The position numbers and the translations under genes are program-made. A stretch of 64,000 nt of DNA. It comes from a bacterium (GTDB lineage: Bacteria > Patescibacteriota > Gracilibacteria > UBA4473). The DNA lies in the NCBI GenBank assembly GCA_018648585.1, contig JABGQW010000016.1, positions 22,483 through 86,482 of the forward strand. Reading direction: 5' to 3'. Below the pieces are notes generated by a model. The model was given only the letters and a program-made list of their open reading frames with translations, searched no databases and was not told the DNA's origin. Below, piece by piece: positions 37,352 through 43,379 of this stretch (position 1 is the stretch's first letter; each line of letters opens with the position of its first letter).

Positions 37352-37379
37352 CTCCCAGTTTCGGCTGGGAGTTTTTTTT
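37352..37379 (+). terminator. Rho-independent terminator after tRNA-Cys
   Basis: CTCCCAG, TTTCGG loop, CTGGGAG, then eight T. It overlaps the last bases of convergent cysS. Confidence 0.9.
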
Positions 37380-38991
37380 AATTTTTCACATTCCACGTCT
37401 GCCCGTCCGCTCCGTCGCGAACTTCAACGTGAAATTTTTCCAAAAGTTCGTCGCGGATCCGATCGGATTCTGCCCAATTTTTTTCCGCGCGTGCGTTTTT
37501 CCGTTCTGCCAAAATCGACTCGATTTCGTTTTTTTCAAATTCGTGGATTTCCACTTTCTGCGGAACGCAGTCAAAAATCGGATCAAAATCGTTCTGCAAA
37601 AAATTGAGTGCAGCGCTCGCGGTCGCGCCGTCGAGTTTTTTTTCTGCGTTCAATTTCAGCACGGCGTTCGTGATTTCAAAAACAGTCGCGAGCGCTCCGG
37701 AAACATTCAAATCGTCGGCGAGCGCGGTTTGAAATTTTTCTCGAAAACTTTCTGCAAAATTATTTGGCGGCTCGTGTTCGGTTTCGAGACAGGCGCGATT
37801 TGCCTCGACGATTCGTGCGATCGATGCGCGAGATTGTTCGAGCGATTTCATCGAAAAATCCAGCGTCGATCGGTAGTGCGCCCCGAGGAGCGCGAGCCGG
37901 ATTTCGTTTCCCTGCCAGTTTTTTTCCAAAAGATCGCGGATCGTGAAAAAATTTCCCGCGGATTTTGACATTTTTTTCCCCTCGACCTGCAAATGTTTTG
38001 TGTGCAGCCAAAAATTCACCGAGTTTTTTCCGTCGAAACTGCACTCATTTTGTGCGATTTCGCACTCGTGGTGGGGAAAAACGTTGTCTTCGCCGCCGGT
38101 GTGAATGTCGAACGGGAACCCGAGTAATTTTTTGCTCATCGCCGAACACTCCACGTGCCAGCCGGGAAATCCGCGATTTTTCTCCAAAAGTTCTCCAATT
38201 TCGTCGTCGCTCGTCGCGGGATTCGCTTGTCGTATTTCAGAATACGATTCACTAAAATCTCGCTTGAGTTCCTCGAATTTGGCGCTTTTTGAAGAAAAAT
38301 TTTTCGTGGCGTATTTTTGAATAATTTCGGCGGAAACCGGTTTCCCCGATAAAAATTCCCACTGCATCAAATGATTTTCGTCGGCTTTTTTCCACAGCGC
38401 AAAATCGAGCGGATCTTCTTTTTCAGAATTTACTTCGACGCGCGCGCCGGCGATCAGATTTTCCAGCGAATTGCCGGACAGTTGCCCGTATTTTTCAAAT
38501 TTCCGGGTGCGAAAATACACCGAGCCATTTTTTTCGTACGCAAAATTTTCGGCGATCAATTTTTTCACCAGCTCAATTTGTTCCGCGATAAATTCTGTTG
38601 CCCGCGGATATTCGTTCGCCGGGCGGATTCGGAGCGTTTTTTCATCTTCAAAAAAATATTTCTCAAATTTCCGCGCAATTTCAAACGGATCGATTTTTTG
38701 CTCGCGTGCGGTTTTCGAAATTTTGTCCTCGCCGCCAGCGTCCGCCGTTTCGTCGTTTGTCAAATGTCCGACGTCGGTGATGTTCATCACTTTTTTCACC
38801 TCAAATCCGGCGTACTCGAGCACGCGTGTCAGCAGATCGGACGCGAGAAAACTGCGAAAATTTCCGATGTGCGCAAAATTGTACACGGTCGGGCCGCACG
38901 AATAAATTTTCACCTTTTCTGGCTCGATCGGCACGAATTTTTCTTTTTTTCCCGACAGCGTGTTCGTCAAAAAAATTTCCATCGCCGCCAT
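37378..38991 (-). CDS. cysS: Cysteinyl-tRNA synthetase
   Basis: Charges tRNA-Cys. Zinc ligands in SCGPTVYN and the GWHVECSAMS and HHECE blocks are present; the HIGH motif reads HIGN and the second motif is KMSKS. Around residues 212-272, between QWEF and RGFPGWH, lies a charged insertion ~50 residues longer than usual (KNFSSKSAKFEELKRDF). Start taken at MAAMEIF (38991); MEIF at 38982 is also possible. It is convergent with its own tRNA gene. Confidence 0.95.
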   Translation of the reverse strand: MAAMEIFLTNTLSGKKEKFVPIEPEKVKIYSCGPTVYNFAHIGNFRSFLASDLLTRVLEYAGFEVKKVMNITDVGHLTNDETADAGGEDKISKTAREQKIDPFEIARKFEKYFFEDEKTLRIRPANEYPRATEFIAEQIELVKKLIAENFAYEKNGSVYFRTRKFEKYGQLSGNSLENLIAGARVEVNSEKEDPLDFALWKKADENHLMQWEFLSGKPVSAEIIQKYATKNFSSKSAKFEELKRDFSESYSEIRQANPATSDDEIGELLEKNRGFPGWHVECSAMSKKLLGFPFDIHTGGEDNVFPHHECEIAQNECSFDGKNSVNFWLHTKHLQVEGKKMSKSAGNFFTIRDLLEKNWQGNEIRLALLGAHYRSTLDFSMKSLEQSRASIARIVEANRACLETEHEPPNNFAESFREKFQTALADDLNVSGALATVFEITNAVLKLNAEKKLDGATASAALNFLQNDFDPIFDCVPQKVEIHEFEKNEIESILAERKNARAEKNWAESDRIRDELLEKFHVEVRDGADGQTWNVKN

Positions 38992-39089
38992 CTTCTTCGA
39001 AATTTTGCATAAAAAAAACATTTCCGCTTGCGTTTTTTTTTTTTGATGTAGAATAAACAGAAAAGTTCGTAAAATTTAACCAAATAAAA

Positions 39090-40124: not shown

Positions 40125-40501
40125 CCGAGCGAGGGGATCATACTTTGCGGCGCGGAGGATTTGAGCAAATTCAAAAGTTCTTCAAAATATTGTCCGATCA
40201 GCGGGAAATCCACGAGTTGCGTCAAAATCCAAACAATGCTTGCGACCACGACGGTCATTCCGATGACGACGCCGAGCCCGCGGACGACTCCCAGCCCAAA
40301 ATTCCAGAATAATAATTTCCGTGGATTTCGGAGCAAACTCATAAAATCGTCCAATCCGGTGGATTCGAGTGCGCGAGTGAGCGCTTGGATTTCCGCAGAA
40401 AATTCAGCTTTTGTGGCCGCGATTGGCGCCTTTTTTGGTGTCGTTTTTTTGGGAGAACTGGCGGGTTTTGGAGTTGTTTTTTTGTCTGTCATCGGGTTCA
40501 T
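40121..40501 (-). CDS. DUF5665-like membrane protein
   Basis: 126 residues. A Lys/Pro/Thr-rich cytosolic N-terminus (~35 residues) precedes a domain with LRNPRKLLFWNFGLGVVRGLGVVIG and one or two membrane helices, resembling DUF5665. Function unknown. It heads a two-gene unit with yggT. Start may be Met1 or Met4. Confidence 0.72.
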   Translation of the reverse strand: MNPMTDKKTTPKPASSPKKTTPKKAPIAATKAEFSAEIQALTRALESTGLDDFMSLLRNPRKLLFWNFGLGVVRGLGVVIGMTVVVASIVWILTQLVDFPLIGQYFEELLNLLKSSAPQSMIPSLG

Positions 40502-40535
40502 TTTAAATTTTCCGGAAAAAAAGTAAACTGCGGCC

Positions 40536-42869
40536 GTGGCAGACGATAAAAAAACGGAATCAGCATTCGCCTTTTCCGCGAAAAAAATCCCGACGGATGC
40601 GGGCTGCTACCTTTTTTTTGACGTGGCGGGGACGATTTTGTACGTCGGAAAAGCAAAAAATTTGCGGAACCGCGTGCGTTCGTATTTTCAAAAAACCGAA
40701 AAATCGCCGAAAACCGAGTCGCTCGTGAAAAAAATTTCTCGAATCGAAACGCGTGTGGTGGAATCGGAGACCGAGGCGCTGATTCTCGAAAATAATCTGA
40801 TCAAAAAATGGCAGCCGCGGTACAATATTTTGCTGCGCGACGACAAAAATTTTTTGTACCTGCGGATCACGAACGAACTTTTTCCGCGGCTTGAAATTAC
40901 GCGCCGAATTGTTCGGGACGGAAGTTTTTATCTCGGACCAAAAACGAGTGCGAAAAAGTTTCGTGCCACGATCGCGTTTTGTCAGAAAATTTTCCAAATT
41001 CGGACGTGCCGACTCGAATTTTCAAAATGCGGAACTGTCGCAAAAAACCCGGAAAAGCGCAGCCTGCCGTGTCTCGATTTTCACATCAAAAAATGTTCTG
41101 GGCCGTGCGCGGCCAAAATTTCCACAGAAAATTATCGAGCGGATGTCGAGCGAATGAAGAAATTTCTCCGCGGCGACACGCGCGAAGTTCTCGTTTCGTT
41201 GCGGGAAAAAATGATGAAACTTGCTGCCGAAAAAAATTTCGAAACGGCGGCTCGCACGCGCGACTTGATTCAGTCGATCGAAAGTTCGACGCAGTCGCAG
41301 TCGGTGCAGTTTTCCGATCTGGTGGCACGCGATTTTGTCCATTTTTTTCGCGATGGAAAATCGGCATTTTTCGTCCGGCTGGTGTTTCGCAACGGAAAAT
41401 TTTTGGATCAAAATGAAGTTGAATTTCACGCTGAAAAATTCGAGTCGGACTCGGAGTTGATTGAGAAATTTCTCCTGCAATTTTACGAGCGGGTCGATGA
41501 AATGCCGTCGGAAATTTTTCTTCCGGAGCGGCCAGAAAACGCGGAAGAATTGGCTGAAATTTTACACGTAAAATTACAGATTCCGGAGCGCGGGGAAAAG
41601 AAAAAAGTTTTGCAACTCGCTCGCAAAAACGCTGAAAAGTTTTTCAAAACGCGGGAATTGGAAATCGAAAGTCGTGCGGAAAATTTTGCGAACGCGCTTC
41701 CTGAACTTGCTGAAATTTTGAAACTCCCCGCGTTGCCGCGGCGGATCGAGGGGTACGATATTTCACATTTTGCGGGAAAAGAAACCGTTGCGAGTCAGAT
41801 CGTTTTTGTCGACGGAGAACCGAAAAAATCAGAATATCGGCGCTTCAAAATTCGGTCGCTGGCGCCCGGAGAAATTGATGATTTCAAATCGATGAACGAA
41901 GTGCTGGCGCGACGATTTTCGGTTTTTGCGAAAAACTTGCAAAATAAAAAATTGGACAATTTCGCGGATTTTTTACAGAAAAATAAAAAACTTTTGCAGC
42001 AGTTTCTCCAGTTTCAAAAAATAATGTCCGGGGTTGATTTTTGGTTGTTGGGGGGATTGGCGGCGGCATTTTCTGTCGGGCGATTTTGGCGGCAGCACGA
42101 AGATTTCGACGTTTTGGTGGAGAAAAAAAATTGGAAAAAAACACAGAAACTTTTGATTGCTGCGGGATTTGAAAAAACAGAAAACACCGAAAATTTTTTC
42201 ACATTTTCCAAAAAAGGATTTCCTCCGATCGACGTTTCTCCGCTCGGCGTGACGCTTCCGATCGGGAAATTTTCCAAAAAAAATACCGATTCGGGTCTCA
42301 AAAAAATTGGAGAAACTTCGGCGCGGGTGTTGAATTTTCAAACGCTGCTCGAAATAAAACGCACGCTCGCGGCGTCTCGCGAAAACGAGAAAGATGGGCG
42401 TGATTTGAAAATTATGACGGAATTTCAAACCGGAGAAAAACTTCCGGACTTGATCGTGATCGACGGTGGAAAAGGGCAGCTTTCTGCGGTTTTGAAAGTT
42501 TTTGCAAATATTTCGCATCCAGGATTCGATCCAAAAAAACAGATCGTGGCGCTCGCAAAACAGGAGGAAGAAGTTTTCGTTCCGGGGCAATCGGATCCGA
42601 TCGATTTGCCCGCGGATTCTGCGGCGTCCAAACTTTTGCAACGGTGTCGGGACGAGGCGCACCGGTTTGCGATTTCGTTCAATCGGTCGTTGCGAGAAAA
42701 AACGGCGATTCGTTCGGCGCTCGACGAAATTTCTGGAATCGGTCCCACGACGAAAAAAAAGTTACTGAAAACCTTTGGTTCGGTGTCCGGAATTCGTGCG
42801 GCAGAAGATGAACAGCTGCGCACGATTATTTCTGCGAAGTCGTTGCAAAACCTGCGAAAAAATCTTTAA
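40536..42869 (+). CDS. uvrC: UvrC excision nuclease with inserted nucleotidyltransferase domain
   Basis: Makes both cuts in nucleotide excision repair. The GIY-YIG domain (YLFFDVAGTILYVGKAKNLR), Cys region, UVR motif, RNase H-like nuclease (D408 in GYDISHF, D643 in VIDGGKG, His in DEAHRF) and C-terminal HhH (ISGIGPTTKKKLLKTFG) are complete. Between about residues 465 and 630, within the nuclease domain, ~165 extra residues form a nucleotidyltransferase-like fold: LLGG (G506-G507), HEDFD (D523, D525), IDVSP (D566) and KRTLAASRENEKDGRDL. Without it the protein has normal UvrC length. GTG start 6 nt after a TAAACT box. Confidence 0.95.
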   Translation: MADDKKTESAFAFSAKKIPTDAGCYLFFDVAGTILYVGKAKNLRNRVRSYFQKTEKSPKTESLVKKISRIETRVVESETEALILENNLIKKWQPRYNILLRDDKNFLYLRITNELFPRLEITRRIVRDGSFYLGPKTSAKKFRATIAFCQKIFQIRTCRLEFSKCGTVAKNPEKRSLPCLDFHIKKCSGPCAAKISTENYRADVERMKKFLRGDTREVLVSLREKMMKLAAEKNFETAARTRDLIQSIESSTQSQSVQFSDLVARDFVHFFRDGKSAFFVRLVFRNGKFLDQNEVEFHAEKFESDSELIEKFLLQFYERVDEMPSEIFLPERPENAEELAEILHVKLQIPERGEKKKVLQLARKNAEKFFKTRELEIESRAENFANALPELAEILKLPALPRRIEGYDISHFAGKETVASQIVFVDGEPKKSEYRRFKIRSLAPGEIDDFKSMNEVLARRFSVFAKNLQNKKLDNFADFLQKNKKLLQQFLQFQKIMSGVDFWLLGGLAAAFSVGRFWRQHEDFDVLVEKKNWKKTQKLLIAAGFEKTENTENFFTFSKKGFPPIDVSPLGVTLPIGKFSKKNTDSGLKKIGETSARVLNFQTLLEIKRTLAASRENEKDGRDLKIMTEFQTGEKLPDLIVIDGGKGQLSAVLKVFANISHPGFDPKKQIVALAKQEEEVFVPGQSDPIDLPADSAASKLLQRCRDEAHRFAISFNRSLREKTAIRSALDEISGIGPTTKKKLLKTFGSVSGIRAAEDEQLRTIISAKSLQNLRKNL

Positions 42870-42875
42870 AAAAAC

Positions 42876-42903
42876 TTGACAAGTTCGGGGTTTTCTGTAA
42901 AGG
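42876..42903 (+). promoter_or_regulatory. Promoter of small helical protein gene
   Basis: TTGACA, 16 bp, TAAAGG, 23 bp before the ATG. The -10 is imperfect, but spacing matches the other promoters. Confidence 0.5.
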
Positions 42904-42926
42904 TGCGTGGGAATTAACAGAACACA

Positions 42927-43379
42927 ATGTTTGGAACCGATCGATTTGAAAAAAGAGAAGATTTGCTCCAGTGCGCGATTGATTTATTCGAGCAGCTTGA
43001 AAAACTGAAAACGCCGGAGGAGTACGAAGTGTTTGCCGTAAAATTTCTGGGACAAAAACAAAAAAAGAATCTCGGGGAAAAAATAGAACAAATTCTCGAA
43101 GAAATTCGGGAGGAGGTGGAAGCGGTGTTCGTTGGTGAGGATAAAAAATTTGTGATAAAAAAATTTTTTGAGGAATTTAAAAAAGAGATGCAGGAATCTG
43201 TTTCGGTTGCGGAGAAATCTTTTCTTGCTTTAAAAGTTTCCCGATTGGAACAGTTTCAGAAATTGATGAAAAAAGCGTACGAAATAAAAAATACGCCGCC
43301 ACTTTTTGCGGTGCTTGATTTTTCCCAGACGAACTTTGAAGATGCGGTGGAAAGTGCGTACGAATTTGTGCAAAAATAA
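42927..43379 (+). CDS. Helical protein of unknown function
   Basis: 150 residues, almost all charged helix (KIEQILEEIREEVEAVF; FFEEFKKEMQESV), probably coiled coil. No known motif. Own promoter; followed at once by convergent yraN. Confidence 0.65.
   Translation: MFGTDRFEKREDLLQCAIDLFEQLEKLKTPEEYEVFAVKFLGQKQKKNLGEKIEQILEEIREEVEAVFVGEDKKFVIKKFFEEFKKEMQESVSVAEKSFLALKVSRLEQFQKLMKKAYEIKNTPPLFAVLDFSQTNFEDAVESAYEFVQK

Follow-up and report, generated by a model that had tools for sequence, protein, structure and literature searches.

The window, that is, the whole stretch of 64,000 nucleotides analysed here, carries on its forward strand a uvrC gene (40536–42869) that begins with GTG and runs for 777 codons without an internal stop. 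It is the only uvrC of its Patescibacteria genome, which also encodes a full, intact UvrA and UvrB, one of each. The 777-residue product was identified as a UvrC by the NCBIfam model TIGR00194 with 567 bits (cut-off 285), and every domain of the UvrC architecture was detected in it using Pfam and NCBIfam. These comprise, all on the forward strand, the GIY-YIG nuclease domain (40602–40826, residues 23–97; PF01541, 2.5e-11), the UVR motif (41184–41285, residues 217–250; PF02151), the UvrC_RNaseH domain (41328–41651, residues 265–372; PF22920, 1.7e-24), the RNase H-like endonuclease domain with its D/D/D/H residues, and the helix-hairpin-helix domain (42717–42857, residues 728–774; PF14520, 7.5e-8). 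The RNase H-like domain is recognised by PF08459 (UvrC_RNaseH_dom) at 8.4e-47 in two separate pieces, the first of which spans residues 393–467; based on this profile and the structural alignment below, its first half, including D408, was placed at 41712–41924 (residues 393–463), and its second half, with D643, D706, and H709, at 42435–42671 (residues 634–712). The catalytic residues of the GIY-YIG domain, as well as D408 and D643, were invariant in an alignment of 39 UvrCs.

What separates the two halves is a domain at 41925–42434 (forward strand, residues about 464–633). When the protein was aligned with the Thermotoga maritima UvrC structure 2nrt, residues 386–462 corresponded to chain residues 7–80 and residues 635–768 to chain residues 83–209, such that about 170 residues stand where 2nrt has a two-residue gap, in a short loop that follows the helix ending in RRF463 and precedes the strand on which D643 lies. 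The solved UvrC structures 2nrt, 3c65, and 8b0q, in contrast, hold no domain in this loop. The original prediction, that some 165 residues (465–630) interrupt the RNase H-like domain between D408 and D643 of an otherwise complete UvrC, is thus borne out. The protein without its insert would measure about 607 residues, the usual length of a UvrC. The window protein therefore resembles known UvrCs in its domains, catalytic residues, single copy, and company of UvrA and UvrB. In a full-length AlphaFold2 model, the UvrC body was predicted well and matched UvrC structures on both sides of the insert (pLDDT of about 85–94 in the second RNase H-like half), while the insert region itself was left unresolved because the input alignment was devoid of insert homologues.

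The codon-usage log-odds of the insert (0.171) were close to those of its flanks (0.165 and 0.146), with values of 0.07–0.08 for the other frames. No convincing direct or inverted repeats were found bounding the insert, where only AT-rich matches occurred. An inverted pair at 41927–41944 and 42500–42517 was considered as a boundary and rejected, as it extends into conserved UvrC sequence and looks like chance. Among the internal start codons examined, none had a convincing Shine-Dalgarno sequence ahead of the nucleotidyltransferase.

Identity of the inserted domain

The insert was matched by PF10706 (aminoglycoside-2''-adenylyltransferase) with 28.8 bits when excised and 25.4 bits within the whole protein, both above the gathering cut-off of 21. 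A nucleotidyltransferase profile built without the window sequence recovered it at 1.3e-11, whereas the other 57 UvrC inserts scored no better than 0.019, and hhalign gave a probability of 96.5% for the nucleotidyltransferase alignment versus 29% for a GNAT-dominated alignment that itself includes the window row. Alignment further located the GG...RxHxDxD signature at 42051–42110 (residues 506–525), the third catalytic aspartate, D566, at 42231–42233, and a KDxxD tail motif at 42390–42404 (residues 619–623), all on the forward strand. In comparison with six stand-alone Lnu-like enzymes, which came from viral contigs, the residues G506, G507, G515, R519, H521, D523, D525, G544, D566, D620, and D623 were invariant, among them the previously proposed glycine pair, three acids, and tail aspartates.

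Modelling of the insert by AlphaFold2 yielded a mean pLDDT of 60, with a core (model residues 10–106) at 63–94 and a C-terminal third below 50. The predicted model adopts the alpha/beta nucleotidyltransferase fold, its input alignment having held Lnu-like rows, so that the fold evidence depends on the sequence evidence. Its best solved matches were LnuA (Z 11.6) and ANT(2'')-Ia (Z 11.1), with Foldseek giving 4.1e-5 at probability 1.0; polymerases were among the more distant ones. Profiles and predicted fold thus agree with the earlier assignment to a Pol beta enzyme of the LinB/ANT(2'') kind with its acids intact, for which structure prediction had been suggested as a check. The view that the insert is a whole, putatively Pol beta-type nucleotidyltransferase of the Lnu/ANT(2'') group is supported by these data. 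It is like LnuA/LinA and ANT(2'')-Ia in size, signature, KDxxD tail, and predicted fold; unlike these stand-alone enzymes, it is embedded in UvrC and shares only about 20% identity with them. A resistance function is not implied by this likeness, and a lincosamide-resistance enzyme in the curated sense was ruled out, since the best NCBIfam Lnu match reached 24.9 bits against a cut-off of 300. Close homologues of the insert were found neither in viral contigs nor in phages, and plasmids gave weak matches only.

Occupancy and turnover of the loop

The UvrC genes of 99 genomes, drawn from the class and family, were read, and inserts were counted over 71 UvrCs. At least 60 extra residues occupy this very loop in 58 of the 71, while insertions at any other position were seen in one or two UvrCs each. 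Pfam identified 40 of the 58 inserts as GNAT acetyltransferase domains (51 with an iterated GNAT profile), and one each as a DUF559 nuclease (8.1e-35), an RBBP9-like serine hydrolase (Ser_hydrolase, 7.6e-12), and the PF10706 nucleotidyltransferase of the window. It had been suggested that the same insertion be sought in related genomes: insertion into the loop proved common, but nucleotidyltransferase content was confined to one of 353 class genomes, with no second such UvrC among the 353 genomes of the class or 380 of the phylum. A GNAT insert is also present beyond the class, in family f52 (L181 and L182). The UvrCs retrieved from other phyla mostly hold no domain at the loop, and those of Chloroflexi carry 35–50 low-complexity residues, which argues for a loop that is generally permissive.

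The CoA-loop residues of the class-wide GNAT inserts are only 61–73% conserved, so that some of these domains may have lost catalysis. In addition, the inserts at the same loop in family f15 (L017, L041, and L042) show no recognisable family or motif and are possibly decayed GNAT domains. Taken together, the two observations suggest that embedded domains can decay.

A UvrC tree was built with the inserts excised. The window protein is sister to the UvrC of a species of the same genus, G001 (71% identity, support 99), the loop of which is empty. The states within the family of 17 were empty in ten, GNATb in four, and GNATc, DUF559, and nucleotidyltransferase in one each, and at least 11 changes of loop state are required over the UvrC tree, in which the deep branches are weakly supported and gain is not separable from loss by the tree itself. 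The absence of the nucleotidyltransferase from the sister species shows, as judged from these sequences, that its insertion is recent.

G001 instead carries a DUF559 domain (L016) at a different position in its UvrC, reference residue 167; this domain and the loop DUF559 of G002 (L024) are identical at 73 of 106 residues. Inverted REP-like palindromes, CCCTCACCCC..CCCTCTCCC, lie on either side of each of the two domains. Occurrence at two UvrC sites together with such flanks fits mobility, and the UvrC DUF559 looks like a mobile cassette. The GNATb inserts, for their part, retain a methionine where the former start would be. REP-like flanks and a methionine at the start position are what the insertion of a whole gene would be expected to leave behind; nothing of this kind was seen around the window insert.

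Related domains in other host proteins

A search of the phylum for the nucleotidyltransferase matched two leucyl-tRNA synthetases (LeuRS). One, in G355 (L178, G355:C23:5000-13000), is an open frame of about 1795 residues in which a HAD, two Ham1, and a NUDIX domain are embedded alongside the nucleotidyltransferase; the other, in G413, has 1006 residues and carries the nucleotidyltransferase at another position. The remaining passenger families recur in a similar fashion. A serine hydrolase is embedded in the LeuRS of G002, G006, and G020, and the serine hydrolases of LeuRS and UvrC display apparent nucleophile, acid, and histidine residues, as judged by eye. An Elp3-like radical-SAM protein with DUF559 inside it occurs in both the window's own genome (L232, G000:C4:29000-32500) and G001 (L233, G001:C6), and DUF559 also interrupts the ValRS of G002 and the IleRS of G009. 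Members of the GNATb family lie within the IleRS of G042 (L236, G042:C129, 1490 residues) and of G005 (L237, G005:C225, 1805 residues), the latter having an embedded histidine phosphatase besides. The ValRS of the window's genome (L220, G000:C25:16000-21000) holds two tandem His_Phos_1 domains in mid-protein (1.2e-58, in two stretches). That passenger families recur across hosts, and that passengers differ at one host site, is what speaks most against a role specific to repair.

Some further observations were made on the side. A Y1_Tnp (IS200-like) domain is embedded in the LeuRS of G001 (L212) and G018 (L215), one open frame of G012 (L235, G012:C11) joins EPSP synthase, DUF559, and NUDIX, and the cysteinyl-tRNA synthetase of the window itself (37378–39021, reverse strand, 547 residues) has about 60 additional residues ahead of GFPGWHVECSAM.

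Interpretation of the embedded enzyme

On the sequence evidence, the insert is probably a passenger enzyme lodged in a permissive UvrC loop, with both activities kept and a substrate of its own. A complete gene of a small stand-alone LnuA/ANT(2'')-like nucleotidyltransferase would have entered the surface loop in frame, possibly by way of mobile or recombined gene cassettes, and the tolerance of the loop would then give rise to one polypeptide in which UvrC works and the passenger enzyme folds independently. UvrC would still incise, both activities would survive, and the transferase would presumably act on its own substrate, be it a small molecule, tRNA, or protein, rather than on repair intermediates. 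Its persistence may be explained by co-expression with an important host gene from which clean deletion would be impossible.

A repair nuclease that had gained a transferase for its own pathway, as implied by the original prediction, would have the insert coupled to excision repair, for instance by nucleotidylating UvrC, UvrB, or the DNA end at the incision site. The insert has a catalytic aspartate of the 5' nuclease on either side of it, and both active sites look intact, which is in keeping with such a role. This must be set against the unrelated enzymes (GNAT, DUF559, and serine hydrolase) that fill the same loop in relatives, the empty loop of the sister species, and the insertion of the same nucleotidyltransferase family into LeuRS; the nearest folds, LnuA and ANT(2''), moreover modify small molecules, though the distant matches include polymerases. 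On this distribution, the association of transferase and UvrC is fixed in neither direction, and coupling to repair is considered improbable. Somewhat less so, yet still unlikely, is the proposal that the insert is a spacer, inert or structural, namely a former gene in decay that the loop tolerates, as might be supposed from the low-complexity residues of Chloroflexi at this site, the partial loss of GNAT CoA-loop residues in some lineages, and the motif-free inserts of family f15. The window nucleotidyltransferase, however, keeps all its signature residues despite being only about 20% identical to its relatives, and the apparent catalytic residues of the embedded serine hydrolases likewise speak against inertness.

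Self-splicing introns are common in the rRNA genes of Patescibacteria, and it might be argued from this that the insert is an intein or self-splicing intron whose removal leaves a normal UvrC. This is the least credible of the explanations: neither Cys/Ser nor His-Asn lies near the junctions ARRFSVFAKN and EFQTGEKLPDL as an intein would have it, Rfam covariance models, including those for group I and II introns, gave no match at E up to 1 over 40400–43000, and the frame is open throughout, its content being a transferase and not a homing or splicing module. Inteins and mobile nuclease genes of the DUF559 type do resemble the present case as in-frame passengers of essential genes, DUF559 being itself a passenger here, but inteins possess splicing motifs, which the window insert lacks, and the latter would stay in the protein as far as can be read from the gene. 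An assembly chimera could be suspected from the occurrence of the nucleotidyltransferase insert in one genome only. With both ends in frame, host-like codon usage, and a position in the very loop where 57 other UvrCs carry inserts, a chimeric origin is very unlikely.

The insertion of domains into essential enzymes is already known. Lineage-specific BEAN/HABAS inserts occur in RNA polymerase (PMC11515920), and editing-domain insertions in LeuRS (PMC13114784); as in the window, what breaks the conserved essential protein is a whole domain, placed in a loop that tolerates it. The known inserts are both deep and host-specific, whereas here, in one bacterial family, unrelated enzymes alternate at a single site, and particular domain families recur across different hosts. 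Unrelated enzymes in one UvrC loop were not found to have been described earlier: in the open-access literature searched, there was no report of a UvrC with an embedded nucleotidyltransferase, none of a UvrC loop holding several unrelated enzymes, and none dealing with insertions in UvrC or with enzymes embedded in proteins of Patescibacteria.

These findings show that whole domains of catalytic type, unrelated in kind, can repeatedly find a place in the RNase H loop of UvrC, and they point to a lineage carrying small enzymes within its essential proteins. A wider generalisation, tentative and somewhat doubtful as it stands, is that essential proteins such as UvrC, LeuRS, IleRS, ValRS, and the Elp3-like protein might act as docking sites for exchangeable small enzyme genes, unspliced and in frame within loops, amounting to a protein-level mobile gene that the host gene would express and shield from deletion. 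In this group of tiny genomes, essential genes do seem to act as carriers of passenger enzymes. Should this be general, enzymes hidden in repair proteins and tRNA synthetases would be overlooked when genes are counted or metabolism is reconstructed for these reduced genomes, and the manner in which genes enter reading frames non-destructively would become testable.
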